This document shows positions 6,946-37,970 of a stretch of 64,000 nt of DNA, in pieces. The translations under genes were made by a program, and so were the position numbers. Source of the stretch: Candidatus Bealeia paramacronuclearis (GTDB taxonomy: Bacteria; Pseudomonadota; Alphaproteobacteria; UBA9655); assembly GCF_035607555.1 (NCBI RefSeq), contig NZ_JAVHWZ010000005.1, positions 1 through 64,000 on the forward strand, given 5' to 3'. The notes below the pieces were generated by a model, which was not told the DNA's origin, did not search any database, and worked only from the letters and a program-made list of their open reading frames with translations. How positions within the stretch are numbered: position 1 is the first letter of the stretch; every line of letters begins with the position of its first letter.

Positions 6946-6947
6946 AT

Positions 6948-10127: not shown

Positions 10128-10153
10128 AATTGACTCCTAAAGTTGCTGAAGGT

Positions 10154-11768: not shown

Positions 11769-11794
11769 AGGTTTTAAAGAGCAGTTATTAACCC
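11769..11794. repeat. right 18-bp direct repeat plus the outermost IS607 end
   Basis: AGGTTTTAAAGAGCAGTT at 11769-11786 repeats the left flank. The next bases ATTAACCC match the extreme end of the complete IS607 copies at about 27966 and 35929. Confidence 0.85.
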
Positions 11795-13257: not shown

Positions 13258-13261
13258 GATT

Positions 13262-13576: not shown

Positions 13577-13640
13577 TCCTATTTAAACAGAATCAAGAGT
13601 CCCGCAAAGATCAGGAGCGCCGTTACCACATCACTGAATA
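13577..13640 (-). pseudogene. fragment encoding a membrane segment
   Basis: A minus-strand frame ends in VVTALLIFAGLLILFK-stop, a clean transmembrane helix, directly at the edge of the inverted copy that begins at 13635. It is probably the tail of a membrane protein cut by the rearrangement. Confidence 0.25.
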
Positions 13641-15250
13641 TCACGTGTCTTAAAGCTGCGTTTTACATCTCTCATTTCGCGCTTTTTTAAGATCAAAGAT
13701 TCCGTGCAGTCAACACCTTCCGTCTCACGAAACATATCATTCCTTTTTGCATGACACAGAATAAAGCTTACGCGTTTGTAACCGAAAACTCGATAAAGAT
13801 TCGATTACAATCAAACCTTTATTTTTTATGTGTTTATGACTATTTTTGTTTTGTAACCGATGTCTTATTTTTTACGGTTACAATTTTTGAGAAATATTTA
13901 TAAAAGGGCTTTGAAGGATGTTTTATGAATTGTAACCGTTGTAACCGTATATATTATAATATTATATGGAAAATTTTTATTTTTACACGGTCACTCATCA
14001 AGTTTTTTAATATTTTTTCTTTTCTATAACTCTTATCTCTCGTCACGGTTACAACGGTTACAGATGCAAAAGCAGCCCTCAACACAGCAGAAAAGCTGAA
14101 AAAAATGTAACCGAGACGATCCGATCCTGGCAGTTACAAAAACAAAAACAGTCATCTACATAAAAAATAAGATTTGGCTGTAATCGAATCTTTGTCAGGT
14201 TTTTCAGTTACAAAAATCTGTTAAAACCAAAAAAAGCATACAATCTCGTGTTGCAAGGGTTTTTGTTTTATAACCGTTCGTTTTGAAGTGCTTACAACTT
14301 TATATTAGGATTAATCTTGTAGCTTCGCGTGAAATTTAAACCAAACTTTTCATTCACTTGTGTCGTATAACGATCTTTAAAGGGAGAAATCAGGATTTCT
14401 TTCTTTATGAAACGAAAGTGCCATTTTGTCGGCTCCTTTCAGCACTTCATCGTCCATCACATCCGGTAAAAATACAGTAGTATGTTCTCTTTCCGTTTTT
14501 TTCTTTAATCGAATCGGCACGCTTTGAAATCGGACGTGAGGTAAAAGATGTGTCTTTAAATGCTTCTGCTTCAAAACGATCCGATTCTTGATAAATGGAG
14601 ATGTCACAGGTCTTTTCTCCACTTTTGGTAATTCATGGGGCAGGGTGCCTCCACGCGGTCTTCAATCCAGCTTTCAAGAGAGATCCCATCATCTCAAAGA
14701 GAGCACTTCCAGAGGCATTCCATGGCAAAATACCAGATCGATACAGTACTCGCCAATCGACATAAAAGTTCTCGCCCACACTGAATCTGCCCATCCGAGG
14801 TCTCGGTGACTTTCAAAGGGCTTCAAGATGCCTCTCTTTCCAAAAACGGATGTCTCATGAATCTTCATCTCAGTCTCTTCATGATCGGCTGTTGTCAGAT
14901 GATGCAAAGCGCTTCCAGACATACGCCATAATGACGGTGGACAGCCTTTAGATGCAACACAAACTGATCCGGCGTTCAAACTCATGCGTATTAAAAGCAC
15001 CTCACATCCAGCATCGCCTCTGCTCAATACACCTGACAGACTGTCCGGCGGTCTTTTCTTTTTTGACGTTCCTTAAATTGGTCTCAAACGGAATCTCACC
15101 TCCACTTAAAGACAGTTCTAAAACATGGCCATTATTTTCCGTTTTTAGCAGTTTGTTAGCTCTGTTTTGGTTTCTCCATTAGACAACATATAGGCCATGT
15201 TAACTGCGCATCCATACCAATAACTCATCAATCAAGAACGATTGCATCAA
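13635..15250 (-). pseudogene. eroded inverted copy of the primase-helicase 3' end and the origin region
   Basis: Read on the minus strand, this segment matches 22200-23884 almost throughout: the last ~334 codons of the 1404-residue gene, then the CGGTTAC-rich origin. It contains many 1-6 base indels and one stretch, around 14520-14560, with substituted sequence. The coding part is broken into short frames (14377-14622, 14689-15027). The CGGTTAC motifs and the outer arms of the origin (13770-13860, 14150-14220) are still recognisable but degraded. Confidence 0.85.
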
Positions 15251-15480
15251 TTCCAGCCGTATCGGAGGAACAAACATTTCAATCTTTAGCTGAGGGCTTT
15301 CTCATATTTTTTACAAAAAAAGGACTGCCGCCATTCAAGTACGTGAAATCTCAAAACGTCAGGGCGCCGTGAATACAATAGACGTGTTGCCAAAACAATT
15401 TTGTGAAAATCTACGAAGAATTCTGCTGCAAGCTTTCAGAGCATGAAAAATTACGCAAGTCCTAATGATAATGGAAATTT
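15251..15480. other. unassigned stretch between two decayed copies
   Basis: 230 bases that join the inverted origin copy to the terminase-region copy. No gene or clear match elsewhere in the window was found. Confidence 0.4.
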
Positions 15481-15643: not shown

Positions 15644-16457
15644 GGCTCTGTGAACAAATTTCAACATAACCATATAAGCGTTGCCACAAAATTTTAAAAA
15701 GACATAAACACGTCTGTTGTTTTATCAAAGCGAGAAAATATCAAATCTGAAGTAGCACTGTTTTCCAAAAGAAGCACTCAGATGTCGTTGTAAGCATGTT
15801 TATCATAATCTCTGGGGTTTCGGTTTGAACGGGCATGGAACTCTTAACTTTGCATCTCTTTCTTCAAGCCACTCACAAACTGATTACTGTCATATCCTTT
15901 ATCAGCGATGATTCCAGCATCTTCAGTGAGGGTGCAGCTTGCGTGATATCGTGTCTTTGCCCAGACGTGAGTGTAGAATTTCAGGGGTTTGCCAAGAGCG
16001 CCATTGCATGAATCTTGGTTGTAAATCACCTCTACTGCGACCCTAAAGCCTGATCCTCTCTACACTATCTTTACATATCCTGATGCACAAGCGTGACGCG
16101 AACGGATTGCATCAATCATGCAGATTCAAGTCTGGTTCTTTCTTACCCAATGCTCAAGGAAGCCACCCTGATCGCTCAAAGCTTAAAACGTCTATGAATT
16201 AATATAATATCCATACTGTTTGGGCAGTAAACGCCATTGACACCCTGTGCGACATATATACCAAATCCTTCAATAGATTTCCGTAGGCTGATTCATCTTT
16301 TGTGTGAGCCTTTTATACTGTTCAAAAAACAAAATAGTTTTCATGTCTGATCTTCAATGTAATAATTCATTCGGTAGATTTCTGTGTCGTTTAAACAGAG
16401 GAATGTTACCACCCCAGAAAAATATATATATTTATCAAAAATTTTGTTCACAGAGCC
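15644..16457 (-). mobile_element. IS5-family (IS427-like) element relic
   Basis: The ends are GGCTCTGTGAACAAA at 15644 and its near-perfect complement ending at 16457, the standard IS5-group terminus. Length is 814 bp. The only readable transposase piece is on the minus strand at 15844-16029 (IIADKGYDSNQFVSGLKKE). The rest is frameshifted. It interrupts the terminase-region copy between the 74-aa relic and the small-gene relic. Confidence 0.75.
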
Positions 16458-16476
16458 TAAAAACTCCTAACAAAGA

Positions 16477-16731
16477 TTGGAGAGAGACTTGCAAATGCGA
16501 TCTGTTTTCACAAAAGTCGCTCGTGAGTCTATTGTGCAGGAGAATGTTCATAACATTACGTTCTCAATAGATGAGCCCAAAGGCGCGTCTTGTACAATCG
16601 CCGGTGAACTCACTCTCTCAGTCCTGTCTCACACCAGAAGGTTATGGGGAGCTATGGAGTTTTCTATCATGACGACGCCAAATGACAACGACTCAGTAGT
16701 TCAAGTCTTTCGTCATTTGAGAAAACTCTGA
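16477..16731 (+). pseudogene. fused relic of the two small genes preceding terminase
   Basis: An 84-codon frame reads MRSVFTKVARESIVQENVH..., then TTPNDNDS..VQVFRHLRKL. These are the 52-aa and 34-aa genes of the other copy (28746-28904 and 28636-28740) run together by small indels. Confidence 0.65.
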
Positions 16732-16793
16732 TTTGCAGCCAACTCCATGACTCTTGTAAACTCCTGCATAGAGTTTTAGGCAACAGCAAGGAT

Positions 16794-18341
16794 TTGATGC
16801 CATCCTCCACACTCAACGATGAGCTGGCGCCCGTTGTTTCAAGCCGATCTGATCATTTCGCTCCCTCATCATGCAAAATATCAAAGGCAGTTTTGGGATA
16901 CAGACCATCTGTACAAAAGACATTCCATAGTGCGGGGAAGAAGACCGCCCGTGAGCGTTTGTTTTGGCCAGCAACCATTGTAGGTAAAACCATGCGTGCG
17001 CTGTTGAGACGTCTATGCATTTGACTGGACACTATCCGGAGTGGTGGGAAGGATACCGTTTTGCGGAACATATTCAAGCTTGGGTTGTGGGTCCTTCGTG
17101 GGAGATCACAGGACAGCTTACAAAAGCAGTATTATCTGGGCGACACTCTCCGCAAGATCACGAGGTCTCGTGATCACTCACTGATCATCAAAGAAGACGG
17201 TATTGATGGAAATTCCCGAGGCCATCGCGCTCTCGTGCGTCATCGGACAGGCGGCATCTCAATCGTCTTTAAATCTTGATCAGGCACTGGACAAGTTTTC
17301 AGGCACTTTCGTAAGCATTGATTCATCTCGATGAAGAACTGGAGATTACAATCCTCAGTGTGCGATGCGAATTATGAGCACGCGCCTCAATACGGAATGA
17401 TGATGATTTCGATGACGCCGCACAAAAGTCATCAAGAGACTTTGGATCGGTTCCAGGTGGACAATGGCAAATCCGGTATAGTTTCCAAAAACAAGCGCTT
17501 TTATCTTCAAGCGGGCTGGGAGGATGCACTGCATCTGAAGGCCCAAGAAAAAGAAGATTACATCAGTGGATCCAGTGATACTCAGATTGAAATCCGTACC
17601 CAAGGCACGCCGCGCACAGGCAGCGGACAAGTCTTTCGAGAATCGGAATCTCTCTATACACAAAGCGCACCTCGGTATGATGTGATGTCAACCTCATCCA
17701 GCATCTTCATTCCACCATCTTGTCAAATTCTTTATGGCGTACAGATGGCGGAATCCTCTTCAGGCACCTGGGGCATGGTTCTTGTCATCAAAGATCCTCA
17801 AGGCGTCATCATAGTGGTGAGCGACTATAAAGGATCCGATCAGCGCTTTGATGACCATGCGCAACGGCTCAAATCTCAACTGCCGTCCAGCTATGTCGGT
17901 GCCATTCCAGGTTTTGTATCTGTGCCAGATCATGAGGAAGAACGGTATCGTCTTTTAGAACAGTTGAGTCAGAACCATCATTTACGACTACAAGGCATGG
18001 AACCTCTCGCATCACGCGAATACGTGATTGATCAAATCCGCAAGATGATGAAAGAGGGCACTTTTAAGATTGTGTCCTTTGAAAAAGATGAAAAGCGTTA
18101 TGGATGTGTGAATCTCATGAACGAGATCCGCAAGTATTCTCGAGATTTGAAAGGACGCATCATCGCGAGAAATGACCAATGCATCGAAGCTCTTTTGAGT
18201 GTGATGAACATTCTTTTGCATCATCAAAATATGGTGCAGACGGGAAGTGAATTGTGTGACGAGATGCCCCAATGGGACTACCGAAGATTCCGACACTTAA
18301 GAGACCGCCCCGCGTTGTATTTGCCACCTTATAAAGAGTGA
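16794..18341 (+). pseudogene. terminase large subunit, frameshifted copy that retains the nuclease half
   Basis: The first ~540 bases match the terminase start at 28587-27967 but carry many 1-6 base deletions that break the frame. From 17331 to 18341 a single 336-codon frame holds the C-terminal half. It begins MMMISMTPHKSHQETLDRF and includes LYGVQMAESSSGTWGMV and VVSDYKG (nuclease-like strands), then IIARNDQCIEALL. This is the only copy of the terminase C-terminus in the window. Terminases cleave and translocate DNA into proheads; the broken N-terminal ATPase makes this copy inactive. Confidence 0.8.
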
Positions 18342-18553: not shown

Positions 18554-19024
18554 GTGGTGAGAGAGGCACTTTTTAAGGGCAAGCTTATCATGGAAAAAAA
18601 TCATCATCAGAACATCGGCGCAAAACAGCATTTTCAAGAGAAAACTGCTGCGTTTTGTGCTGCGCATTTTTTAAGGAATTTCCAATGGACTGAGAAAACA
18701 CTTTGTGCAGAGCACAAAAGAAAGACTGAGAACAGCAATTTGCGTTTGAAGTTTGAGGATTGTGTGGAGGCTGCCTTCATTTCTGAAAACAGCCACACAG
18801 AATATTTGAAAATAATCAACACATCTACAGTCTCAAATGAGATGTGCGTCAAGGACAGCGACAGGAGGAGCGTTAAGCGCTTATATCCATATGCGCAAGA
18901 CAAAAGCAGCTTTGTGCAGTCCTTCTTGAGCGCAGTCCAAGACCTTGAAACAGATGTGTTGATCCAAAGGAACAAGGAGAACACATATGTCTCAAATTTC
19001 CAAAAGAATATCACAAGGCTATAG
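18554..19024 (+). CDS. hypothetical protein (156 aa or shorter)
   Basis: An open frame overlaps the start of the primase gene by 38 bases. A start at the ATG at 18590 (MEKNHHQNIGAK) is as likely as the upstream GTG at 18554. The product is polar, with several cysteines and no recognised motif. It shows no clear ribosome-binding site, so it could be a chance frame in the leader of the primase gene. Position suggests a small replication-module protein if real. Confidence 0.4.
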   Translation: MVREALFKGKLIMEKNHHQNIGAKQHFQEKTAAFCAAHFLRNFQWTEKTLCAEHKRKTENSNLRLKFEDCVEAAFISENSHTEYLKIINTSTVSNEMCVKDSDRRSVKRLYPYAQDKSSFVQSFLSAVQDLETDVLIQRNKENTYVSNFQKNITRL

Positions 19025-22000
19025 CTGTACGGAAGCAGAATTTTTAAAGATTATTTCCCACCTGAGAGGCACTCAACAAGGCGCGGGATCTCACGCGCAT
19101 GGCAACTGGAGCGTCCATTGTCCAGCACACGATGATCAAAAGCGCAGTGCGTCATTCAAATGGGAATCACCGGACAAACTCATTACCAAGTGCTTTGCGG
19201 GCTGTTCGCATCAGGCCATTATGGAAGCGCTTTTCGTGCAAGGTCTTGTCTCTGAAAGAATGTCCTCAAAAGACAAACCTTCCAAACCGGAGACCTCTTC
19301 ATTCCAGGTCACACCTGCGCGTCTCAAGGCGCTCTGGGAAGCATGTGAAGTGAACACGGCCAGATCACCGGTGGAAGAGTATCTCACGCGTCGCATTCCA
19401 AACCTTGCTTTTCTGCCATCATGTGAATCAGTTCGATATCATTCCGCACTCCTGCATCGAGAAAGCGGCAAGGAGTTACCTGCCATGGTGTCTCGCGTGC
19501 AGTTTCAAAAGAGCGATCGTATCGCTATTCATCGGACGTGGCTGGATCCTAACACACACCAAAAAGCAGACGTGTCCAATCCTAAAATGATGATGGGCAG
19601 TGTGAAGGGCGGGGCTGTTCACTTAAGCTCTCACTCCAATCCAGAGATTTTAGCGATCGGCGAAGGCATTGAGACTATGCTGAGCTTCCATCATATGACA
19701 GGCATTTCGAGCTGGGCAGCGCTTTCAGCGAGCAATCTGGGTGTATGTGAGCTGCCCGCTTTGCCGAATGCACGAGTTCTGGTTATTGCCATTGATAATG
19801 ACAAGAATGATGCCAGCCTCAAGAATGCAAGACGTCTTCAATCCAGAGCTTTGGCAGAAGGCAGGGTTGCTATTATCGTGAGACCGCCTCGTACTCTCAT
19901 AAGTGAGCATTCAAAAGAAGGCACCGAAGAAAGCATTCAGGAGACCGCCTTTCAATTCAAGGACTTCAATGACATCGTCGCTCAACAAGATTGGCAAAGC
20001 CGAACTCTTGCCCACTGGATTGAATCACAGGATGGAGACGACATTTCTTGGATAGTTGAAAAGACCAATGATGTTGAGCGCATTTGTGAAAAGTTCTTGG
20101 AGGAACACACATCTATTTCAACACACTCCTCAATTGAAAGTGCTCATCAATCGCTGAGCTTTGATGAAGCCTTTGATCACATTCAAAACACGCGGCACAA
20201 CATCTGTCTTCTGGGTGCAGGTGGTACTGGTAAAAGCACCTTGATCCAAAAACTGATGTCGGAAGGAGCTCTTTCCGGTCACACTGTACTCTTGGCACCG
20301 ACAGGTCTTGCGGCACTCAATATTGGGGGTGAGACCATCCATAAGTTTTTCCATTTCTCTCCCGATATTACGCCGCATACGGTACGTGTTTCGAAAGACA
20401 AAATCTACCGAGAGATTGACACCATCATCATTGATGAGGTTTCGATGCTCAGAGCCGATCTCCTCGATGTGATTGATATCTTTCTCAAGAAGAATGGCAA
20501 GAGCAACACCAAACCATTTGGTGGTGTTCGCATGATCTTGTGTGGGGATTTCTTCCAGCTTCCGCCTGTGCTCAAGGATATTGATGTGAAAGAGTTTCAG
20601 GAGGGCGGATACAAAACGACGTATGCCTTTGGCGCGCGTTCTTTTGAAGGTATCGAATGTATTGAGATGAATCATGTCTTTCGTCAGAAGGATGAAGCGT
20701 TTTTGAATCTTCTGAAAAAGATCCGATGTGCGGATATTGAGCCTTGTGATCTGGCGCCTTTAAATGCGCGCGTTCAGGATCCCGAGATCTTCCTGCAAGA
20801 AGGGCTTGCGCCGTTGCTCACAACCACCAACAAAAAAGCGGACTCTTTCAATCAGGAAAAACTGGAGAGCATTGACGCATCAGCCTTTGTTTATGAAGCC
20901 AAACTCAAAAACTGGGACGGTCATGCAGAGCCTGCGCCACAAAACCTCATCTTGAAGACAGGTGCGCTGGTGATGTTTCTCAACAACGATCCCGCAGGCA
21001 GATGGGTGAATGGGACGTTTGGTGTGGTGAGCGATCTTTCAAAGTCTTCTATCACCGTGAAGATTGGAGAAACTGAAGTTGATGTCGAAAGACATACGTG
21101 GGAACGCAAATCAACGCGACTTCATAAAAAAGAGATCCAGCGCAAGACAGAAGGTGAGTTTACTCAATATCCACTCCAGTTGGCATGGAGTATCACCATT
21201 CACAAAAGTCAGGGACAGACGTTTGATCGTGTAGTGATTGACTGGGACAAGGGAACCTTTGCCGATGGACAAGCCTATGTGGCTCTGAGCCGGTGTCGGA
21301 CGCTTGAAGGGATTTGTTTTCAGAGCTCGACATGGCCGGAGCATCTTTCTGTTTCAGAGGATGTGATCACATTTATGTCAGAAGCCAGAGAGACAGAGAC
21401 GATTCAAAGCCATTCCCTGTCCTTTGAAGGCACTATTCACGATCAGGATGAAACGCTCTACTCTCATCAGGAAGACGAGAGTGACGTTGTAGATGAGGAC
21501 AAACGCTTCAAAGTCAATGAGTACGGGATTTTTACTCGTGAATCAGGGAGTGCGCACTGGGTACAAATCCACGGGCATCCCTTACGGTTGCAATCGCGAT
21601 TCCAGATGGAGGATGGGAGCGGATGCGGAAAGATCTTTGAGTTTGAAAATAAACCGTTTGGAAAGAAGAACTTTGTGCTTTTTGATCGTATGATTAACAC
21701 AAGAGATTCCATTGAGATCCAAGAGGGACTCAGAGATCTGGGATACAAAACACCGCAAGATCCGGCGCAGATGAAGCTTTTGGTGCAGTTTTTAGATGCA
21801 TGGGACACGCCTCACGTACTGACGCTCTCTGAAAAGACAGGTTGGGTGGGCCAGAAAAGCTTTATTTTAAATGGAAGATCTTATGGTGAGGAGACGGAGA
21901 GCTATATTTTCAAACCACGATCTTTTGCGATACCGCAGTATGAGATGAAAGGCACTCTTGAGGGATGGAAACAAGAGGTGGGGGTCTATTGTGAAGGCAA

Positions 22001-23201
22001 CAGTCGTCTCATGCTCTATGTGATTGCCGCCCTCAGTGCCCCGTTTTTGAAGATCACCCATCGTCAAGGGTTTGGTGTGCACTTGTATGGCACATCGTCC
22101 GTTGGCAAGACAACAACATTGGAAGTGGCAAGCAGTGTGTTTGGCAGCAAGATCCACACATGGCGCACGACGGATAATGCGGCAGAAACGTTAGTCCTGC
22201 AATCGAATGATGCACCGTTCTTGATTGATGAGTTGGGACAGGCGGATGCGGGCAGTGCGTATAACATGGCCTATATGTTGTCTAATGGAGAAACCAAAAA
22301 CAGAGCTAACAAACTGGGCAAAAACGGAAATACGGCTGTGAGTTTTAGAACTGTCTTTTTAAGTGGAGGTGAGATTCCGTTTGAGACCAAATTTAAGGAA
22401 CGTCAAAAAGAAAAGACCGCCGGACAGTCTGTCAGGTGTATTGAGTTGAGAGCAGATGCTGGATGTGATAAAGGTGCTTTTAATACGGTGCATGAGTTTG
22501 GAACGCCGGATCAGTTTGTGTTGCATCTTAAAGAAGCCGTCCACCGTCATTATGGCGTGGCGTCTGAAGCGCTTTTGCATCATCTGACAACAGCCGATCA
22601 TGAAGAGATCGAGATGAAGATTCGCGAGGACATCCGTTTTTGGAAAGAGAGGCATCTTGAAGCCCTTTTGAAAGTCACCGAGACCTCGGATGGGCAGATC
22701 TTGCGTGTGGGCGAGAACTTTGCGTTTCTGGCGTCGATTGGCGAGTACTGTATCGATCTGGGTATTTTGCCATGGAATGCCGGAAGTGCCTTTGAGATGA
22801 TGGGATCTCTCTTTGAAAGCTGGATTGAAGACCGCGGAGGCACCCTGCCCCATGAATTACTGCAAGTGGAGAAAAGACTCAGACTTCTCATTTATCAAGA
22901 ATCGGATCGTTTTGAAGCAGAAGATGAAGACATGACCTTTACCTCACGTCCGATTTCAAAGCGTGCCGGGATTCGATTGAAGAAAAAATCTGAAGAGAAA
23001 ACATACTACTGTATTTTTACGGATGTGATGGACGATGAAGTGCTGAAAGGAGCCGACAAAAAAATGGCACTTTCGTTTCTCATAAAGAAAGAAATCCTGA
23101 TTTCTCCTTTAAAAGATCGTTATACGACACAAGTGAGAATGAAAAGCTTTGGTTTAAATTCTCACGCGGGAAGCTACAAGATTAATCCTAATATGTTGTA
23201 A
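18987..23201 (+). CDS. giant replication protein: Toprim primase + PIF1-like helicase + DUF927 ATPase fusion
   Basis: 1404 residues; AAGGAG eight bases before the ATG fixes the start. A zinc-finger primase head has C45, H48, C69 and C73. A Toprim domain follows with E226 (IGEGIETM) and D270/D272 (IAIDNDKND). Residues ~405-790 are a superfamily-1B helicase of PIF1/RecD2 type: Walker A GAGGTGKST (410-418), IIIDEVSM (480-487), GDFFQLPPV (520-528), the C-terminal TIHKSQGQTFDRVV and YVALSRCR. Residues ~840-1160 match the DUF927 type, with a second Walker A GTSSVGKTTT (1035-1044) and FLIDELGQA. The role would be priming and unwinding at the origin just downstream. Two separate motor domains and a primase in one chain is unusual. 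The 3' quarter is duplicated, eroded and inverted at 13635-15250. Confidence 0.9.
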   Translation: MSQISKRISQGYSCTEAEFLKIISHLRGTQQGAGSHAHGNWSVHCPAHDDQKRSASFKWESPDKLITKCFAGCSHQAIMEALFVQGLVSERMSSKDKPSKPETSSFQVTPARLKALWEACEVNTARSPVEEYLTRRIPNLAFLPSCESVRYHSALLHRESGKELPAMVSRVQFQKSDRIAIHRTWLDPNTHQKADVSNPKMMMGSVKGGAVHLSSHSNPEILAIGEGIETMLSFHHMTGISSWAALSASNLGVCELPALPNARVLVIAIDNDKNDASLKNARRLQSRALAEGRVAIIVRPPRTLISEHSKEGTEESIQETAFQFKDFNDIVAQQDWQSRTLAHWIESQDGDDISWIVEKTNDVERICEKFLEEHTSISTHSSIESAHQSLSFDEAFDHIQNTRHNICLLGAGGTGKSTLIQKLMSEGALSGHTVLLAPTGLAALNIGGETIHKFFHFSPDITPHTVRVSKDKIYREIDTIIIDEVSMLRADLLDVIDIFLKKNGKSNTKPFGGVRMILCGDFFQLPPVLKDIDVKEFQEGGYKTTYAFGARSFEGIECIEMNHVFRQKDEAFLNLLKKIRCADIEPCDLAPLNARVQDPEIFLQEGLAPLLTTTNKKADSFNQEKLESIDASAFVYEAKLKNWDGHAEPAPQNLILKTGALVMFLNNDPAGRWVNGTFGVVSDLSKSSITVKIGETEVDVERHTWERKSTRLHKKEIQRKTEGEFTQYPLQLAWSITIHKSQGQTFDRVVIDWDKGTFADGQAYVALSRCRTLEGICFQSSTWPEHLSVSEDVITFMSEARETETIQSHSLSFEGTIHDQDETLYSHQEDESDVVDEDKRFKVNEYGIFTRESGSAHWVQIHGHPLRLQSRFQMEDGSGCGKIFEFENKPFGKKNFVLFDRMINTRDSIEIQEGLRDLGYKTPQDPAQMKLLVQFLDAWDTPHVLTLSEKTGWVGQKSFILNGRSYGEETESYIFKPRSFAIPQYEMKGTLEGWKQEVGVYCEGNSRLMLYVIAALSAPFLKITHRQGFGVHLYGTSSVGKTTTLEVASSVFGSKIHTWRTTDNAAETLVLQSNDAPFLIDELGQADAGSAYNMAYMLSNGETKNRANKLGKNGNTAVSFRTVFLSGGEIPFETKFKERQKEKTAGQSVRCIELRADAGCDKGAFNTVHEFGTPDQFVLHLKEAVHRHYGVASEALLHHLTTADHEEIEMKIREDIRFWKERHLEALLKVTETSDGQILRVGENFAFLASIGEYCIDLGILPWNAGSAFEMMGSLFESWIEDRGGTLPHELLQVEKRLRLLIYQESDRFEAEDEDMTFTSRPISKRAGIRLKKKSEEKTYYCIFTDVMDDEVLKGADKKMALSFLIKKEILISPLKDRYTTQVRMKSFGLNSHAGSYKINPNML

Positions 23202-23284
23202 GCACTTCAAAACGAACGGTTACAAAAACAAAACCCTTGCAACACGAGAGTTTGTAAGGGTTTTTTTATGGTTTTAACAGATTT

Positions 23285-23371
23285 TTGTAACCGAAAACTC
23301 GATAAAGATTCGATTACAGTCAAATCTTTATTTTTTATGTGTTTATGACTGTTTTTTGTTTTTTGTAACCG
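23285..23371 (+). repeat. left 87-bp arm of the origin inverted repeat
   Basis: Starts and ends with TTGTAACCG. It pairs with 23647-23733 at 85 of 87 positions by eye. Confidence 0.85.
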
Positions 23372-23646
23372 CTTGTAATCGGACGTCTCGGTTACATTTT
23401 TTTTCAGCTTTTCTGCTGTGTTGAGGGCTGTTTTTGCATCTGTAACCGTTGTAACCGTGATTTGAGAGATAAGAGTTATAGAAAAGAAAAAAATATTAAA
23501 AACTTGATGAGTGACCGTGTAAAAAATAAAAAAATTTTCCATATAATATTATAAATATATACGGTTACAACGGTTACAATTCATAAAACATCCTTCAAAG
23601 CCTTATAAATACTCAAAAAAATTGTAACCGTAAAAAAATAAGACAT

Positions 23647-23733
23647 CGGTTACAAAAAACAAAAAATAGTCATAAACACATAAAAAATAAAGGTTTGACT
23701 GTAATCGAATCTTTATCGAGTTTTCGGTTACAA
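23647..23733 (-). repeat. right 87-bp arm of the origin inverted repeat
   Basis: Reverse complement of the left arm except for two substitutions. Both arm ends are the CGGTTACAA motif. Confidence 0.85.
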
Positions 23734-23933
23734 AACGCGTAAGCTTTATTCTGTGTCATGCAAAAAGGAATGATATGTTTCGTGAGACGGAAGGTGTTTT
23801 CGACTGCACGGAATCTTTTGATCTTAAAAAAAAAGCAAGGAAATGAGAGGGATGTAAACGTGTTTTTAAGACACGTGATATTCAAAGGGATCTGATGGAG
23901 GGCGTCTTGGGAAAGTCAGAGTATATTTTCCAA

Positions 23934-24396: not shown

Positions 24397-25092
24397 ATGG
24401 CACCTACAAAAAAAGAGCCGACAAAGACAGTTCGCAAAACTCAAAAGGCGAAGACGACAACGCCTGCGCTCAAGACCAAGGGCGCGAAGATGCTCACACT
24501 GTCTCTTGAGAATCTCGCCTTTCTCAAAACCATCCAAGGACAATCTCTTTTTGTAGATACGCTTTTAGATCGCTGTCGCACACAAGAAACTTTATCAGGA
24601 TCTCAGCGCACAGCTGAACTTGTGGATCGGTATTACGCTCTGACAGGTGTTCTCCCTGAAAAGGCCTATCAGAAATTTCTGCAAAAACGCATTGCTCTTT
24701 TAGAGAAGAATCGGACGCAAATGAAATCCCCGTCTTTGGCCGGTAGTCATCTCTCGGGCTCCGCTTTTCTAAAGCTTGATCAGGCCTTAGAACACCTTCA
24801 AGCAGAGAACGCCACAAAAGACCTCAAACAGGCTGTCACCTATGGTGTGATGTTTCGGATGACGGGCTGCAATCAACAAACGATCCGCAATTGGTTCCAG
24901 GCGAGAAAACAAGATATTGCAGCTTATCACAAGAGTCTCGGCGTGGAGGATCCTGGGATTCATAATCGTCAGGTGGCCGTTGTGGAACGCGTGCGGCGTG
25001 CCCAAGCTTTACGCGAGAGCCGCACCTCCCAAGAAGATAACTCACAAGGCGAGACCGTATCATGTCAGAAACTTCCTTTGTCTCCCCTTTAA
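24397..25092 (+). CDS. hypothetical protein coupled to the telomere-resolvase-like gene
   Basis: 231 residues with an ideal AGGAGGT five bases before the ATG. The first 30 residues are Lys/Thr-rich and disordered (KKEPTKTVRKTQKAKTTT). The rest is helical. A segment near 150-175 (VTYGVMFRMTGCNQQTIRNWFQARKQ) resembles a helix-turn-helix, so DNA binding is plausible. Its last 31 bases overlap the next gene, showing translational coupling. It may be a partner or regulator of the recombinase. The family is not recognised. Confidence 0.65.
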   Translation: MAPTKKEPTKTVRKTQKAKTTTPALKTKGAKMLTLSLENLAFLKTIQGQSLFVDTLLDRCRTQETLSGSQRTAELVDRYYALTGVLPEKAYQKFLQKRIALLEKNRTQMKSPSLAGSHLSGSAFLKLDQALEHLQAENATKDLKQAVTYGVMFRMTGCNQQTIRNWFQARKQDIAAYHKSLGVEDPGIHNRQVAVVERVRRAQALRESRTSQEDNSQGETVSCQKLPLSPL

Positions 25093-25919
25093 GCTATTTA
25101 CCGCCCAATCAGTTTCAAGTGTTTGAGAGAGATCTTAGAGCTATCTCAACCTCTGAAGAGCAGATCTTGGCCCTGGTGCACAAGACCCAAGAGCGATTGC
25201 GCCGTGAATATCCTAATCTCAAGAGTCTCAGGCGTATTTTGACGCATTACCGCAACATTTGTCGCAAAGTGCTCTCAGGGGATCTCCTGAGAGGAGCACT
25301 GGGAGTTCTGAATCTCAAAGATCAGGAGATTGTGTTTTTAAACACGAATTATATAGAGACGGTGGCGCAAGAACACCGCAACTTGCGTCCTCTTCAGAAT
25401 TATCTGGAGATGATCAAACATGCCGAAGATCTGCTCATTACCCGTCGTCCTTTGGATTGGGTCTTGGGATTGTGTTTTTTAACAGGACGCAGAGCCGCTG
25501 AGATTGGATCGACCGCGTGTTTTGGCGTTGTGGACGCCGATCACGTTCGGTTTTCAGGTCAGCTGAAGACCAAGACGCGAGAATCTCGTCCTTATGTCAT
25601 TCCGGTTTTGACGCATTCAAAACGTATCACGGAGACCTTGGCGACTTTACGCAAAGAAAAGCCACGCTGGTTAGATGATCCTCGTTACTTTAAAGACAAC
25701 ACGTCCTCACCTTTATCTCAAAAGGTGAAAAAGCAGTTTGGGGAGTTCATTTTAAATCCCCGTGTGAAAGATCTTCGGGCAGCCTATGCGGAGGTGGCTT
25801 ATCACCGGTTTGGATCTGAGGAGATTGCAAAATCTCGTTTCTTTTCAGATATTTTGGGTCATGGAGAAAACGATATTGTCACAGGCCAATCTTATCTGGA
25901 CTTTTATCTGGCGTCTTGA
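25062..25919 (+). CDS. tyrosine-recombinase-fold protein resembling telomere resolvase (protelomerase)
   Basis: 285 residues. The catalytic order fits protelomerases better than XerC/XerD integrases. LTGRRAAEIGSTACFG supplies R143/R144. RFSGQLKTKTRESRPYVIPVL supplies the lysine in the SGQ.KTK block usual in TelN/TelK-type enzymes. KDLRAAYAEVAYHRF supplies R239 in place of the integrase HxLR box. ILGHGENDIVTGQSYLDFYL supplies H267 and the presumed nucleophile Y278. Protelomerases cut a palindromic site and rejoin the strands as covalently closed hairpins, maintaining linear plasmid prophages such as N15. The known TelN is about twice as long, so this would be a short form. An ordinary phage integrase is the alternative. 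Confidence 0.65.
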   Translation: MSETSFVSPLSYLPPNQFQVFERDLRAISTSEEQILALVHKTQERLRREYPNLKSLRRILTHYRNICRKVLSGDLLRGALGVLNLKDQEIVFLNTNYIETVAQEHRNLRPLQNYLEMIKHAEDLLITRRPLDWVLGLCFLTGRRAAEIGSTACFGVVDADHVRFSGQLKTKTRESRPYVIPVLTHSKRITETLATLRKEKPRWLDDPRYFKDNTSSPLSQKVKKQFGEFILNPRVKDLRAAYAEVAYHRFGSEEIAKSRFFSDILGHGENDIVTGQSYLDFYLAS

Positions 25920-26063: not shown

Positions 26064-26108
26064 ACCGCTCTTACAAACTTATCCAAACCTAACCATATTT
26101 TACTAAAG

Positions 26109-27305
26109 TTACGCATGGTGTTGTATTCCTGATTCAACGCAGGTAGTTTCACTTATTTGACGAGCAAATGAGCCAGAGCTTCCCACTCCACAGGCATAAG
26201 TTTCGGGCGAGCTGCCCGTACATAAACGTTGTAAATTAAGGGCTGCATTCACATCTCTGTCATGAGATTGGTTGCAATGTGGACACGTCCAATGTCTCTC
26301 CGACAACTTTAAATCCGCATAAACACATCCGCAGCTATGGCAGAGCTTGCTTGACGGAAAGAACCGATCAGCAACAAAAATTTGAGCATTATAGAGACCT
26401 GCCTTATATTCCAATTGACGCCTGAATTCATAAAAAGACTGATCTAAAATATGTCGAGCTAATTTTCTGTTCGCTGACATACCTTTGACATTTAGGTTTT
26501 CAATGCCAATTTCATGATGATTCAGGACAATATCGGTTGTTGCCTTATGGAGATAATCACGTCTGATATTAGCGATTCGGGCGTGAAGACGTGCCAGTTT
26601 TTGAGTATGCTTTTTAAAATTCATACTCTTTTTATCTTTACGAGATAGCTGTCGAGAAGATCGTTTTAACTTCTTCAGCAAAGCGGTATGTGCCTTTGCT
26701 CCCTCAACAACCATGCCATTGGATAAAGTTGCCAGTTTTGTAATACCCAAATCCACACCCACAATACCTTGGTTCTTGCGTACATGAGGCAGTTTGTCTA
26801 TTTCAACACTGATGGATGCAAACCATCGGTCTGCAACTCTTGAGATCGTCAAGGATTTTATTTGTCCTTGAAATCTCAAATTCTCTGTTATTTTGACCCA
26901 TCCCAAACAAGGAATTTGAATCTTTTTACCTGTCACACGAATGGCAGACTCTCCTTTTTGGGGCGGACCATTGTCCGCTCTAAAGCTATCCCTGATTCCT
27001 TTCTTTTTAAACTTGGGATATCCTCCCTGTTTGCGGAAAAAGCGGTTAAAAGCTGATCCTAAATTTTTGATGGCTTGTTGAGGGGCATTTTTAGTGACCT
27101 CTTGCATCCAAGGATATTCTTCCGCCTTACAAGCATTGAGAAGTTTACGCAGGCTTATTTCTGTAGGCTTCTCACCATTCTGGTATTGTTTCTTCCATTG
27201 ATCTAAAGCCCAATTATAAGCAAAGCGTGCAACACCGCAGGCTTTTCTAAAATAAGTCGCCTGCTTATTATTTGGCTTCAATTCTACTTTATGAACTAAC
27301 AGCAT
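26109..27305 (-). CDS. tnpB: TnpB, RNA-guided nuclease of IS607 (copy 1)
   Basis: 398 residues. The N-terminal RNA/DNA-binding part has ACGVARFAYNWALDQW and GYPKFKKKG. The split RuvC nuclease has aspartate in VGVDLGITKL, glutamate in IGIENLNVKGM, a four-cysteine zinc ribbon (CHSCG and CPHC) and aspartate in HDRDVNAALNL. TnpB proteins cut DNA under guidance of an RNA made from the element's right end. Here the right end is at 26064 and the guide would read into 26063 and lower coordinates. All catalytic residues are present. It overlaps tnpA by 17 bases. Confidence 0.93.
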   Translation of the reverse strand: MLLVHKVELKPNNKQATYFRKACGVARFAYNWALDQWKKQYQNGEKPTEISLRKLLNACKAEEYPWMQEVTKNAPQQAIKNLGSAFNRFFRKQGGYPKFKKKGIRDSFRADNGPPQKGESAIRVTGKKIQIPCLGWVKITENLRFQGQIKSLTISRVADRWFASISVEIDKLPHVRKNQGIVGVDLGITKLATLSNGMVVEGAKAHTALLKKLKRSSRQLSRKDKKSMNFKKHTQKLARLHARIANIRRDYLHKATTDIVLNHHEIGIENLNVKGMSANRKLARHILDQSFYEFRRQLEYKAGLYNAQIFVADRFFPSSKLCHSCGCVYADLKLSERHWTCPHCNQSHDRDVNAALNLQRLCTGSSPETYACGVGSSGSFARQISETTCVESGIQHHA

Positions 27306-27912
27306 CGTAGGCTTCTTTCAGACCTTCCAATAATTTCTTGTTCTTTTTACTTCTCGCACCATACAATCTGGCCGAAAAAACAGTGATAATTTCCAACACA
27401 TCTTTGGCGAGTTCCTCTTCAAAAGAGGGTTCTTTCCCTTGATTGATAATCACAACTTCTACCTGATTCATCTCACAAATGGAAAAGATTAATTCTGCTC
27501 CAAATCTTAACAGCCTGTCTTTATGGGTTAAAACCAATCGACCTGCTTCTCTGTCTAAAATGGCACTAATCAGGATCTTCAGACCCTTTTTGTTGTAATT
27601 CATACCACTGCCAAGATCCGCAATGGTCTCAAACTTCCAACCTTGAGCTGCACAATACATCTCAAGGACTTGTTTTTGTCTTTCCAAATCCTGCCGTTGA
27701 TCGTGACTGGAAACACGAGCATAGCAAAGCGTTTTTCTATCTATCTTTTCAGTGCGAACAAGATGAGGGCGCAAGGCAGATAAAGGATAACGTCTTTGTC
27801 CTCCCGCTGTTCTTTCGGGAACAAGGCGACTCTCTTTTTCCCATCGCCTTAATGTGCCATTTGACACTCCAAGAATACGACTGGCTTCTCTGATACTCAA
27901 TAACTTATCCAT
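27289..27912 (-). CDS. tnpA: IS607 serine recombinase TnpA (copy 1)
   Basis: 207 residues. A MerR-like helix-turn-helix (LSIREASRILGVSNGTLRRWEK) precedes a small serine-recombinase catalytic domain with the nucleophile in YARVSSHDQRQDLERQ and the arginine-rich helix in THKDRLLRFGAELI. It catalyses excision and insertion of the IS607 element at poorly specific sites. It is intact. Confidence 0.93.
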   Translation of the reverse strand: MDKLLSIREASRILGVSNGTLRRWEKESRLVPERTAGGQRRYPLSALRPHLVRTEKIDRKTLCYARVSSHDQRQDLERQKQVLEMYCAAQGWKFETIADLGSGMNYNKKGLKILISAILDREAGRLVLTHKDRLLRFGAELIFSICEMNQVEVVIINQGKEPSFEEELAKDVLEIITVFSARLYGARSKKNKKLLEGLKEAYDAVSS

Positions 27913-27966
27913 AATTGGATAACTATATACAAGTTTAGATAGGTTTTAAAGAGCAGTTATTAACCC

Positions 27967-28587
27967 GTATTGAGAGGCGCGTGTGCTCATAATTCGCATC
28001 GCACACTCCTCGAGGATTCTGTAATCTCCAGGTTCTTCATCGAGATGAATCACGTTTACGAAAGTGCCTGAAAACTTGTCCAGTGCCTGATCGTAAGATT
28101 TAAAGACGAGATTAGAGATGCCGCCTGAACGATGACGCACGAGAGCGGTGCTGATGGCCTCGGGAATTCCACTCAATACCGTCTTCTTGATGATCAGTGA
28201 GTGATCAATGAGACCCGTGATCTTGCGGAGAGTGTCGCCCAGATAATACTGCTTTTGTAAGCTGTCTCGTGTGATCTCCCGCGAAGGACCCACAACCCAA
28301 GCTTGAATAGGTTCCGCAAAACGGTATCCTTCCCACCATTCGGGATAGTGTCCAGTCAAATGCATAGACGTCTCAACAGCGCACGCATAGGTTTTACCTA
28401 CACGGTTGCCGGCCAAAAACAAACGCTCACGGGCGGTCTTCCCCGCACTATGGAATGTCTTTTGTACAGGATGTGGTCTGTATCCCAAAAACTGCCTTTG
28501 ATATTCTTGCGCGATGAGGGCGCGAAAATGATCAGGATCGGCTTGAAACAATCGCGCCAGCTCATCGTTGAGGTGTGGAGGATGCAT
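27967..28587 (-). pseudogene. terminase large subunit, N-terminal ATPase part cut by IS607
   Basis: About 207 codons in frame from the ATG at 28587, with AAGGAT upstream. Walker A GNRVGKTY is at residues 60-67, then PSREITRDSL, and a Walker B-like VIHLDEEPGD near 186. The frame then runs a few codons into IS607 (stop at 27946). The remainder of the gene does not follow the other side of either IS607 copy. The C-terminal half survives only in the eroded copy at 17331-18341. This copy has the intact N-terminal half that the other lacks. Confidence 0.85.
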
Positions 28588-30159: not shown

Positions 30160-30504
30160 TCACTTTTTTAGCTGACTACTATATTTTTCTTCGTAGAGGC
30201 TTAACGCTTTTTCTAAGATCTCAACAAGAAGAACGCCTTCATGAAGTGCCAACTGACGAATTCTCTCATCCCAATCAGGTGTCACGCGCGTTGCAAACTG
30301 CACCGTTCGTTTTGTGCGACGTGCACTTCGTCCATCAATACGTCCATCACGTTTTCTTTTTAATTGAGAATCTGAAATAGCCAACACTGGCAAAGGAGCG
30401 ATCTCTGGAGCTGTTAAATTGTGACTCGCTTCTTGCAATGGAGGTGGTTCCCCCAATATTGAGTGACGTTGAGTTATCTTTTTGAGTTTCGAGACATCAG
30501 CCAT
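30160..30504 (-). CDS. ParB-like partner of ParA, probable ribbon-helix-helix protein
   Basis: 114 residues with a basic disordered N-terminus and a C-terminal VQFATRVTPDWDERIRQLALHEG...LVEILEKALSLYE that has the strand-helix-helix layout of small partition proteins. It is coupled to parA by an 8-base overlap. It would bind a centromere and stimulate ParA ATPase. The identification rests on position and fold pattern only. Confidence 0.6.
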   Translation of the reverse strand: MADVSKLKKITQRHSILGEPPPLQEASHNLTAPEIAPLPVLAISDSQLKRKRDGRIDGRSARRTKRTVQFATRVTPDWDERIRQLALHEGVLLVEILEKALSLYEEKYSSQLKK

Positions 30505-31132
30505 ATGTAGGAATCCTATCTATTAATGATTGAATCAAAGCATTAGATTGTTTGTTGAGTTTAGAATAATAGGTTTCAGTAATCGCCTTTCCTCCATTTT
30601 GTGCCTGACGATAAGCAGGTCTATCTCGTAGAAAGCCCTCTAGCACGTGATATCCAGCTTTCTCTAGATATCTACGAGCAGAGCTTTCCTCAGCTGCAGT
30701 ACCAACTCGATTGAGAGAAAACACCAAACGTTCATGAGGTATGCTTTCATTGATCAAGGCATGAAACTCGCGCACAGCAGGAACAAGATCATCTCGGGAT
30801 GTCCCGGACGGTTGCACAATCAAATTAGCTGCGCTTGCTATTTCAAGCGTGGCCTGACTCGTGCGAGCAGGTCCATCAATGATCAAAAGATCAAAACCTT
30901 CACTCGCCGCCAAAGCGTGAGATGAACTTGAAAACGCTTCCACAGAAATCGTTGGCTCAATCCCTCGAGAAAGTCGCAAACGATGCCAATCGACAGAAGT
31001 TCCTTGTTGAGTATCCAAATCCGCTATCTTGACATTGACCCCGCCAAACGTGGCCTCACGTGCTAATGCGCGCGCCAGAGTTGACTTTCCAACTCCTCCC
31101 TTCTGCGAAACAAATGCGACGATTACCGTCAT
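30497..31132 (-). CDS. parA: ParA-family partition ATPase, first system
   Basis: 211 residues. The deviant Walker A KGGVGKSTLARALA is at residues ~11-24, the switch motif ADLDTQQGTS follows, and Walker B is in DLLIIDGPAR. It is the short plasmid type (ParF/ParA class Ib) without an N-terminal DNA-binding domain. It segregates low-copy replicons, which agrees with a plasmid-like prophage. CTAGCGGCTAG at 31205-31215 upstream is a possible operator or centromere element. Confidence 0.88.
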   Translation of the reverse strand: MTVIVAFVSQKGGVGKSTLARALAREATFGGVNVKIADLDTQQGTSVDWHRLRLSRGIEPTISVEAFSSSSHALAASEGFDLLIIDGPARTSQATLEIASAANLIVQPSGTSRDDLVPAVREFHALINESIPHERLVFSLNRVGTAAEESSARRYLEKAGYHVLEGFLRDRPAYRQAQNGGKAITETYYSKLNKQSNALIQSLIDRIPTYG

Positions 31133-31263: not shown

Positions 31264-33195
31264 TCAATCTGCCCAGAAGCTGCGAAGTATTCTAGCGCGT
31301 TTCGGGTGTCTTAGCTTTCGTAATGCCTTCGCTTCGATCTGACGTATACGTTCCCGTGTCACACCAAAGATAGCACCCACCTCTTCAAGAGTATAACTGG
31401 TGTCCATCCCAATCCCAAACCGCATCCGCATGATTCTTTCCTCTCGCGGGTTGAGAACTTCAAATATCCGTGTTGTGGCCTCTTTTAAGTTTGTCGCAAT
31501 CACGCCTTCCAAAGGATCTTTGGCATTGGTGTCTTCAATGATATCTCGCAAATATCCTTCTTCTCCTGATCCAATGGGCGTATCGAGACTGACAGGCCCT
31601 TTTTCAATTGCCAAAATTTCCTGAATATGTGAGAGAGATCCTTCAATTTTTTGAGCCAGCTCCTCAGGCGTTGGATTGCGACCCAGCTCTTGAAACAGGG
31701 AATGTGAGACTTTCCTGATCTGAGAAATCTTGCTTTCCACATGAACAGGAATCCGGATCGTTCGCACTTTGTCCTGAATCGCACGAGTTATGTGCTGTCG
31801 AATCCACCATGTTCCATAAGTCGAGAACTTATGCCCCCGGCGATAGTCAAACTTATCGACAGCCTTCATCAAACCAAGGTTTCCCTCTTGGATCAGATCT
31901 AAAAAGGACATCCCGCGATTCATATATTTTTTGACAATCGAGATCACCAACCGCAGGTTGCCTTCGATCATTGCTTTTTTCGCGCGCATCATGTCGCGTT
32001 CGCCTTTTTGCACTCTTCTCACGATGTGAGTGAATTGGGCAAGAGGTATCCTCAACTCGATTTCAAGAGATTCCAGCGCTTGGCGGAGAGAGACCACTTT
32101 TTCTCTCCGATCCTCAAGTGGCTTGTTCTCTGCGCTGGATGGTCCGTCAACAGGCTCAATGTGCAGGGAGTCACGCGGGTCCTCCTCCGCAGAGACAACA
32201 GGAGAAGCAGATATGGCGTCTCTACCTTCTGTCAGCGTGAGCAGCTGACCTTCAAGGTCCATCCGTCTGCGATTGAAGACATCTAGTTGATCTTTCAACT
32301 GCGCAATCCGATCTGACCTTAAATGAAGACTCTCACAGAGTCTGATCAGTTCGGCTTTGTGCGGTGTCTCCGGTATAGAAGACGGTGAATTGTTTTGAAA
32401 AGATCCTGGTTGATATGGATCGTGAAAGGCATTGTGATACGTTTCTTCAATCTTGCTCAAGATCTCCAGTGTCACAAATCCTAAAGACTGATGAAGGGTG
32501 CGATAGGGAAGTGTCGTCTCTTCAGTCTCCGTGTCCGTATCTGATGCCTCATCCTCATCACCAGCATCGGGAGCGGGTTCGGTGTCCTCAGGATTGAACT
32601 CATCCTCCTCCTCATCTTCAGATAACGGTTTAGGCCGCGCCGCCTCTACATCAATGAAGCTTTGAAGAAAGATTTTCTGATTTTTCAGTTCCTCACCCCA
32701 AGCGATAATTTGACGAATCGTCAAAGGCCACTCATAGAGCGCGTGTTCCATCATCTCCCGTCCTTGGATAATCTCTTGACTGAGTTCTATTTCTTGAGAT
32801 TGTGAGAGCAGACCCAAGCGACCCATCTCATTCAAGTAAAGACGCACGGGATCCTCCGCAGCAACCGCTCTTTTGCGATGAGATGTGTCCTCATCATCGG
32901 CTCTGTCAAAACCACTGCCATCTTCTCTGGGCTCTCTTTCCTCAACCTCAACGCCCATGTCAGAGAGTGCCACCAACACCTCCTCTAAGGGAACAGAAGG
33001 GGCGCGCCGGGAGACAATCTTGGCCACATCTCTCTCCTGAATGACACCACCCGTATCCGCGCGTCTGATTAATTTTTCCATCTCTGAAGACGACAACACT
33101 TGTGTCACAAGATCTATCGTCTCTTCGGCTTCTGAGCTCAGATCCGTCTCAGTTTGCGTGATTGTTTCGTCTTGAACATCGTGCCTGTTTGTCAT
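31264..33195 (-). CDS. full-length RpoD-like primary-type sigma factor on the mobile element
   Basis: 643 residues from the ATG at 33195, whose first base overlaps the TAA of the gene upstream. It has a sigma 1.1-like N-terminus, region 1.2 ([19 protein letters not shown]), a long acidic non-conserved insert, and region 2 at 409-486 ([50 protein letters not shown]). Region 3 and region 4 (580-643; [23 protein letters not shown]) follow. Promoter-contact residues of 2.4 (Q, T, R) and 4.2 (R, E, Q) match the housekeeping type, so ordinary -10/-35 promoters should be read. It differs from typical RpoD in several conserved places (GMSF, YGTWW, QDKVRT). Its place in a phage operon suggests host RNA polymerase takeover, or a capture of host rpoD. 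Confidence 0.93.
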
Positions 33196-33782
33196 TACTG
33201 CACACCTCCGCTGACCTGTACCTCTTCCAGCAATGGAATGAGGTTTTTGTATCCCCACCTCAGGTAATCAACTATCTCATCTGAGGAGATCATAAACCAG
33301 TCCACACGTCTGGAGCGGTTAATAGCATTTTCGATCTCTTGAAACGAAACCGCCTCCAAAACACGCTGCGGTTTCCAACCGTAAGCAAAACGGAGTAACG
33401 GCGTTTCGGTTTTGGCTTGAATCTCATAGAGCTGCTTGAAATACGAATGATTGTCTTTTGTCATCAGCTCCACCGTATCTTTAAAAACGCACTGATGAAT
33501 CTCGTGCTTTTGTCTCTCTGTCAATCCAAAAAGCTTTCGGTCATTTTCAAAAAAGACTTTGGCAAGCGGTGTGTCTTGATGCGCAAAGGCTTCAAGATCG
33601 ACCTCTCGATTGTCTGCACTGACGCACGCGCAAATCAAGTCCCAGTTGAGTTGATTGATGTCTTCCAAGACTTCCTCAATCTTTTGTGTTGCAATCACAT
33701 TCGCGCTATAGATCACTGTCATATCCTGGAGCCACTGAACTCCTTTTCTATCCTCGTAATCAGGAAAATAGTCTTGATAATC
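33195..33782 (-). pseudogene. C-terminal part of a gene split by an IS701-like insertion
   Basis: About 195 codons continuing the frame of 34866-35026. It includes YFPDYEDRKGVQWLQDM, a region of mixed helices, and ends [15 protein letters not shown], with TAA overlapping the sigma-factor ATG. Removing the element and one TAATC copy restores ...QYDYQDYFPDYED... in frame, giving ~248 residues in total. Function unknown. Its overlap with the sigma gene suggests an anti-sigma or co-regulator, but no motif supports that. Confidence 0.75.
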
Positions 33783-35149: not shown

Positions 35150-35928
35150 TTATGCCTCATACCCTGCGCCGGTGTTGTCTTGAGAACACGTTGCTTCCTC
35201 CTCATAGTCGCTCAAAGCGTCTCGCGTGCCATACTCTTGGGCAATCCACTCCTCATCAAAGAGCGCTTGTCGGGTCTCAAAATGGTCGTCTTCACAGGGA
35301 TCTCTGAACTCTTCCCATCTCTCGTCTTCAAATGTGACGTCGTCTTCTGGTCGAAGGTCTTCGGAATCAACCTGATCTTCCAGTGGGATTTCAGTTTCTT
35401 GAGAGGATACTGTCTCAGCGGAGGCGTTCTCTTGGCATGAGTGGAGAGAAGAGGATGCAGCATCTGCCTTTGCGCAATCCATCCGGCCTAACGCCTCTTG
35501 CTGGACATTGAGAACCTCAAGGGCATTTGTGATCTCAGCCAATCGCGCCTCCACACGTTCTTCGAGAAGCTTTCGTTGGACAGCCTCATCGATATCCTCT
35601 GGAAACAAGCGTGGTCTTGCAAAGTCCGCCAAGGTCGACTCCCACATCAAACGATCCAAAAGACTCAAGCCTTGCCAGGGCGTCTGACAATCCGAAGTTT
35701 CAATCTTTTGACCTTGTGCTTCTTGGGCCTTCACAAACTCAGGAAACAGTTTCGTTTTGTCCTCTTCACTGGTCTCGGCAACGGCTTTTCTGAGCGCCGC
35801 TTCGCGAGATTCCTGAATCTCGGCAGGGAGCTCCTCTTTGCGGCTCAAAAGGGCTTGTCGTTGGTCGATCAGTTCCTTGTGACGGGTCTCTATTTGGAGC
35901 TCTGCTTCTGTTTTAGGAATGACACGAT
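35150..35928 (-). pseudogene. C-terminal part of the helical PW..LW family gene split by IS607
   Basis: The frame is open up to the IS607 end at 35929 with no start of its own beyond internal ATGs. It reads HRVIPKTEAELQIETRHKEL, then helices, CQTPWQGLSLLDRLMWEST, LFPEDIDEAVQRKLLEERVE, and a long acidic tail rich in Glu/Asp. The missing start is at 25981-26063. The family also includes 12769-13257 and 37971-38738. Confidence 0.75.
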
Positions 35929-35982
35929 GGGTTAATAACTTCTCTTTAAAACCTATCTAAACTTGTATATAGTTATCCAATT

Positions 35983-36606
35983 ATGGATAAGTTATTGAGT
36001 ATCAGAGAAGCCAGTCGTATTCTTGGAGTGTCAAATGGCACATTAAGGCGATGGGAAAAAGAGAGTCGCCTTGTTCCCGAAAGAACAGCGGGAGGACAAA
36101 GACGTTATCCTTTATCTGCCTTGCGCCCTCATCTTGTTCGCACTGAAAAGATAGATAGAAAAACGCTTTGCTATGCTCGTGTTTCCAGTCACGATCAACG
36201 GCAGGATTTGGAAAGACAAAAACAAGTCCTTGAGATGTATTGTGCAGCTCAAGGTTGGAAGTTTGAGACCATTGCGGATCTTGGCAGTGGTATGAATTAC
36301 AACAAAAAGGGTCTGAAGATCCTGATTAGTGCCATTTTAGACAGAGAAGCAGGTCGATTGGTTTTAACCCATAAAGACAGGCTGTTAAGATTTGGAGCAG
36401 AATTAATCTTTTCCATTTGTGAGATGAATCAGGTAGAAGTTGTGATTATCAATCAAGGGAAAGAACCCTCTTTTGAAGAGGAACTCGCCAAAGATGTGTT
36501 GGAAATTATCACTGTTTTTTCGGCCAGATTGTATGGTGCGAGAAGTAAAAAGAACAAGAAATTATTGGAAGGTCTGAAAGAAGCCTACGATGCTGTTAGT
36601 TCATAA
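35983..36606 (+). CDS. tnpA: IS607 serine recombinase TnpA (copy 2)
   Basis: 207 residues identical to the copy-1 protein, with the MerR-type helix-turn-helix and the catalytic serine in ARVSSHDQ. Intact. Confidence 0.93.
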   Translation: MDKLLSIREASRILGVSNGTLRRWEKESRLVPERTAGGQRRYPLSALRPHLVRTEKIDRKTLCYARVSSHDQRQDLERQKQVLEMYCAAQGWKFETIADLGSGMNYNKKGLKILISAILDREAGRLVLTHKDRLLRFGAELIFSICEMNQVEVVIINQGKEPSFEEELAKDVLEIITVFSARLYGARSKKNKKLLEGLKEAYDAVSS

Positions 36607-37786: not shown

Positions 37787-37970
37787 CTTTAGTAAAATAT
37801 GGTTAGGTTTGGATAAGTTTGTAAGAGCGGTGTCGATGATACTGAAGCTGATGTCGGAAATCCGTAAGATTGCTCTTGTGTGTTTTGATCTGACACGGTC
37901 TGTCTCCTCGTGTTGTTTTCAACGGTTTCAAAAGTTTTGATTGTCTTCATCGCGATATCAAGTCACTTTT

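Follow-up and report, generated by a model that had tools for sequence, protein, structure and literature searches.

The resolvase locus

Candidatus Bealeia paramacronuclearis (Holosporales) is an endosymbiont of Paramecium. The window, a 64,000-nucleotide stretch of its genome, lies on contig C5 (73,871 bp in full) and encodes a predicted telomere resolvase within a set of replication, partition and phage genes. The features are listed below; L066 and L076 are viral contigs carrying relatives of the resolvase.

13635-15253, minus strand: inverted copy of 22205-23884 (primase 3' end and palindrome), rich in indels, 88% identity with 72 substitutions and 126 gap bases
16457-17395, plus strand: the terminase N-terminus in a second, indel-rich copy that runs into the terminase C-terminal part without IS607
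17331-18341, plus strand: C-terminal part of a T4-type large terminase (23% to L066 terminase 188-459, E = 6e-13; phrog_5653, E = 0.002)
18987-23201, plus strand: replication protein, 1404 aa, with Toprim primase, PIF1/Dda-like helicase and DUF927 domains (Pfam, PHROGs)
23283-23735, no strand: imperfect palindrome of 453 bp in which TGTAACCG copies are mirror-symmetric, with 98% complementarity between the outer 89-nt arms
24397-25092, plus strand: p231, conserved resolvase neighbour, homologous to resolvase neighbours on three linear cyanobacterial plasmids (E = 3e-8 to 1.5e-6; phrog_34828)
25062-25919, plus strand: predicted compact telomere resolvase (P0001), 285 aa (PF16684, TelA sequence and fold matches, residue mapping)
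26064-27966, minus strand: IS607 element, directly downstream of the resolvase (IS607 annotation in pBealeia3)
27946-28587, minus strand: N-terminal part of a large terminase of T4 type, truncated at 27966 by IS607 (Terminase_6N; 48% to the L066 and L076 terminases)
30160-30504, minus strand: small gene overlapping ParA (position only)
30497-31132, minus strand: ParA-type ATPase (phrog_164; 30% to ParA of linear Chondrocystis plasmid5)
35929-37831: second IS607 copy, inverted, 99.95% identical to the copy at 26064-27966
37829-64000, minus strand: pBealeia1-type phage module with portal, head and tail genes (NZ_CP133271 match; portal, major head and structural PHROGs)
40371-41021: second ParA, inside the pBealeia1-type phage module

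The safest part of the contig is 17.4-26.06 kb, where the long frames are intact and the order is terminase C-terminus, small ORF, primase-helicase, palindrome, p231, resolvase. The reading frames of the resolvase, p231 and the 1404-aa primase are all uninterrupted, and the 3' end of p231 overlaps the start of the resolvase gene by 31 bp. As a guess, p231 may be an accessory DNA-binding protein; its structure model (pLDDT 41) is too poor to interpret. The ParA at 30497-31132 possibly belongs to the same replicon as the resolvase. The small gene overlapping it matches no family in Pfam or PHROGs, and its product is a possible ParA partner. Rfam and tRNA scans were empty.

A compact member of the telomere resolvase family

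The original prediction for this locus was a protelomerase-like recombinase, and it is borne out. The open reading frame at 25062-25919 (plus strand) encodes 285 aa, including all four motif blocks on which that prediction was based, and an HMM search against the telomere resolvase catalytic family scores well over the cut-off: PF16684 (ResT-TelK_cat) is the sole Pfam family matched, at 105.1 bits (E = 4.1e-30) versus a family cut-off of 27 bits. The short length is genuine rather than the product of a wrong start, because the stop-to-stop frame spans 292 aa. A phmmer search of all PDB sequences finds TelA (E = 1.6e-19), ResT (1.8e-6) and TelK (0.13), and no integrase. An AlphaFold2 model of the protein, built from seven sequences (pLDDT 85.1, pTM 0.68), gives the same first match by fold (TelA, E = 1.4e-14, TM 0.69), followed by TelK (8.8e-9) and ResT (5.8e-7), all of them before the best integrase, lambda Int (E = 7e-4). 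Compared with viral models, it is most like ORF1 of Vibrio phage VHML and the resolvase-domain protein of Emiliania huxleyi virus 86.

The predicted R-K-R-H-Y catalytic residues are all present. When the TelA active-site residues (PMC3558466) are transferred by alignment, R255, K286, R366, H394 and Y405 correspond to R144, K169, R239, H267 and Y278, and Y363 corresponds to K236, which completes the set R144-K169-K236-R239-H267-Y278. TelA of Agrobacterium is the closest solved structure, with the same fold, the same catalytic residues and likewise no stirrup or muzzle domain, but it is longer (442 aa) and has Tyr363 at the place of Lys236. Against the TelA equivalog model (NCBIfam NF052462) the protein scores 77.3 bits, below the cut-off of 800, and it is therefore a family member but not TelA itself. 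By family, sequence and predicted fold, the product of 25062-25919 is a telomere resolvase.

This is the only PF16684 match in its genome (2.03 Mb, 17 contigs). The other 16 genomes of the same order have no resolvase, and among 385 genomes drawn from the class just two encode one, the Bealeia genome included. As far as is known, few groups of bacteria have telomere resolvases. The Bealeia protein represents a known enzyme family in compact form and in a type of host new for it, and it is among the smallest known relatives of the hairpin-closing enzymes. The linear plasmids described in a 2025 paper are presented there as the first in Alphaproteobacteria (PMC13293297).

Relatives on linear and palindromic elements

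A single-protein scan of viral contigs and a first scan of genome contigs came back empty. Later scans of IMG/VR and genome contigs yielded closer relatives, 34-44% identical to the Bealeia protein: L040, L066, L067 and L076 from IMG/VR, and L063 (NZ_FQTP01000097), a contig of the Bathymodiolus heckerae thiotrophic symbiont. The original suggestion of a compact branch agrees with the tree, in which the Bealeia resolvase groups with relatives of 273-300 aa (full-length examples are the 273-aa L066 and 300-aa L076 proteins) and with cyanobacterial ones at a clade support of 86/83, the order within the group being unresolved and the branches long.

All four IMG/VR loci have a p231-type protein and a large terminase as neighbours of the resolvase. 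Their partner proteins are weakly similar to Bealeia p231 directly and are linked to it via each other and the cyanobacterial family. The terminases are of two types: those of L066 (two genes downstream of its resolvase) and L076 match the Bealeia gene at 27946-28587, while those of L040 and L067 resemble the type found on pBealeia1 (NZ_CP133271) and the Megaera phage-plasmids. L067 and L063 differ from Bealeia in having a large polymerase-like protein in place of the primase-helicase; in L063 this protein adjoins the same-clade resolvase.

A similar set occurs on three cyanobacterial plasmids of 12-18 kb recorded as linear: pSTA7437.04, Cy782206 and Chondrocystis NIES-4102 plasmid5 (L059, L060 and L061, the linear plasmids of Gloeothece, Stanieria and Chondrocystis). 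Like the Bealeia locus, these plasmids encode a resolvase (29-32% identity), a p231 homologue and a large terminase, with a ParA also on Chondrocystis plasmid5. Unlike it, they have resolvases of 335-340 aa, a 1.05-kaa polymerase-like protein (phrog_36870) and inverted repeats of up to 1.1 kb. Those of Chondrocystis plasmid5 lie at both ends (1,104 bp, 99.9%), and those of the other two lie at or near both ends. The three terminases are of differing types, and tests of all but a few small proteins on these plasmids gave no capsid, portal or tail family.

Within the clade, hairpins are best supported by L076 (IMGVR_UViG_3300032249_001474). This contig of 13,726 bp has the same sequence on both strands, a perfect palindrome such as Bealeia does not have, and reading through a closed hairpin gives exactly such a sequence. 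Its centre (6863/6864) falls in non-coding DNA that contains short repeats, and precedes the first gene by about 770 bp and the resolvase by about 1.6 kb. Degenerate repeats such as GAGTAGTGTTTAATAATATCGA surround the central sequence CCATCTCT/AGAGATGG, which is a candidate hairpin telomere. It is possible instead that the L076 palindrome is an assembler artefact or a replication intermediate.

A palindrome upstream of the resolvase

N15-type phages (TelN/TelK) and VHML/MAR-type Vibrio phages resemble Bealeia in having a resolvase near replication and ParA genes. They differ in the far greater size of the enzyme (550-631 aa in the set compared) and in having a clear telomere palindrome upstream of the gene. 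A palindrome scan that picks up both the N15 telomere site (24775-24830) and, in phage MAR, the palindrome upstream of the protelomerase gene (26187-26266) finds no perfect palindrome of this type at 17.4-38 kb of C5. The telomere palindrome could be in DNA that the assembly lacks.

The imperfect palindrome at 23283-23735 is set apart by its repeats. The window contains 19 copies of TGTAACCG where 0.6 would be expected, and every one falls in 23217-23732 or its copy at 13.8-14.1 kb; ten within the palindrome are arranged in mirror symmetry about 23509. Its centre is about 100 bp of AT-rich, non-palindromic sequence. The inverted copy at 13635-15253 lies several kb from the original. It might be a terminal repeat of a linear plasmid, although it is indel-rich and does not include the resolvase.

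A mosaic contig

C5 is a mosaic, joined by IS607 and with poor stretches. Positions 1-11769 repeat, with an inversion, 448582-460262 of C1, another, chromosome-sized contig; 13.6-17.4 kb duplicates pieces of 22.2-28.9 kb in inverted, indel-rich form; and IS607 copies sit at the joins (26064-27966, 35929-37831 and 67941-68308). Topology therefore cannot be read from the contig. Contigs C7-C10 are fold-backs of quality similar to, or worse than, the poor stretches of C5. As signs of hairpin ends, C7 and C9 are doubtful: the arms of C7 are out of register by 1.9 and 0.5 kb, and part of the sequence from which C9 folds back is also present in C1, so that both, with their indel-rich differences, look like artefacts. 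C10, considered in the same way, contains a palindrome with zero spacer. The published 7.6-kb plasmid pBealeia3 (NZ_CP133273, L057), in which 128-2274 repeats 6614-4716 inverted with 270 gap bases, also looks like an assembly artefact.

The original prediction placed the surrounding phage genes and both ParA genes together with the resolvase on one linear plasmid prophage. The evidence does not bear this out: 37829-67946 matches pBealeia1, which is recorded as circular, the first 11,769 positions copy the chromosome-sized contig, and IS607 bounds the pieces. A single linear prophage over 18-68 kb is likewise unsupported, given the same match to pBealeia1. Identity to this plasmid is 97.2-99.5% over most of the length and 88% in one stretch, and a portal protein of pBealeia1 shares 98.9% identity with the one encoded here. 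Judged by these matches, the virion genes and the second ParA (37.8-68 kb) are part of a replicon other than that of the resolvase. Contig C6 is largely pBealeia1 itself, and 37829-64000 is a second copy of its phage module, about 1% diverged. The Megaera phage-plasmids share this structural module as well; Megaera CP113869 is likewise recorded as circular, and on neither it nor pBealeia1 is a resolvase annotated or found. A portal-protein scan gave no matches. pBealeia1 also carries six RebB-type R-body genes.

Function of the resolvase and nature of its replicon

Taken together, it is probable that P0001 is a compact TelA-type resolvase which, with its partner p231, belongs to the replication module of a Bealeia plasmid or phage-plasmid and makes hairpins in the fashion of TelA. 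By analogy with TelA, a P0001 dimer would bind the palindromic replicated telomere, Tyr278 would cut 6 bp apart, and each strand would be refolded, P0001 sealing two hairpin ends. The catalytic role is well supported by family, fold, an intact active site, a conserved gene module and linear or hairpin-like relatives. From sequence and model we infer a hairpin-forming activity, an element that is linear now or was recently, and a palindrome at 23283-23735 that could be its origin or a telomere-derived junction. Several points stand against this: the missing N15/MAR-type palindrome, the non-palindromic centre of the one large palindrome, the mosaic contig with its indel-rich stretches, the recording of pBealeia1 as circular with no resolvase annotated, and the absence of resolvases from the order's 16 other genomes. 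The predicted linear element keeps the support of relatives on linear or hairpin-like elements and is not matched by a telomere palindrome near the Bealeia gene.

The next reading, which we regard as distinctly less probable though worth serious thought, is a genuine resolvase left stranded after its telomeres fused or IS607 broke the element, now on a circular plasmid or a chromosomal fragment. The palindrome would then be a decayed telomere-telomere junction, as its imperfect arms and non-palindromic centre of about 100 bp suggest; IS607 adjoining the gene, the split terminase and the joining of C5 to chromosome-like sequence also point this way. Against it, the frames of the resolvase, p231 and the 1404-aa primase are intact, and the joins in C5 may be assembly errors. 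It seems improbable that the resolvase works in trans, on a different replicon in the cell, despite a precedent in Agrobacterium biovar 1 strains, where TelA encoded on the circular chromosome serves the linear chromid (PMC13293297). The lack of a telomere site beside the Bealeia gene would suit action in trans, but in N15, MAR and L076 a telomere or palindrome adjoins the gene. We know of no linear Bealeia replicon. An ordinary tyrosine integrase inserting a prophage at an att site would have the tyrosine-recombinase fold in common, with lambda Int in the fold ranking, but it is ruled out, to all practical purposes, by the far better fold matches to TelA, TelK and ResT, a PDB sequence search that returns no integrase, and PF16684 as the lone Pfam family.

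Returning to the probable hairpin-making resolvase, its relatives raise a broader and more speculative idea, to which we give limited credence. The Bealeia protein might come from a class of small hairpin-ended plasmids, not yet described, that combine a compact resolvase, p231 and a large terminase of exchangeable type, and have no capsid genes. These would be linear satellites of phages, relying on helpers such as the pBealeia1 type for packaging and spread from cyanobacteria to intracellular alphaproteobacteria. The basis for such a terminase-bearing, capsid-less class is a handful of loci, and it is put forward as a possibility; if true, the recurring combination of resolvase, partner and terminase would represent a new kind of linear packaging parasite. 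A 285-aa resolvase in an intracellular symbiont, with relatives of 273 and 300 aa, also suggests a minimal enzyme useful for studies of hairpin formation.

Two further observations concern the plasmid-like parts of the contig. C5 encodes a second RpoD-like sigma factor (664 aa, 31264-33258), the other being on contig C1. Three homologous proteins, perhaps replication-associated, occur one per plasmid-like segment, at 12769-13299, 35150-35848 and 37971-38738.
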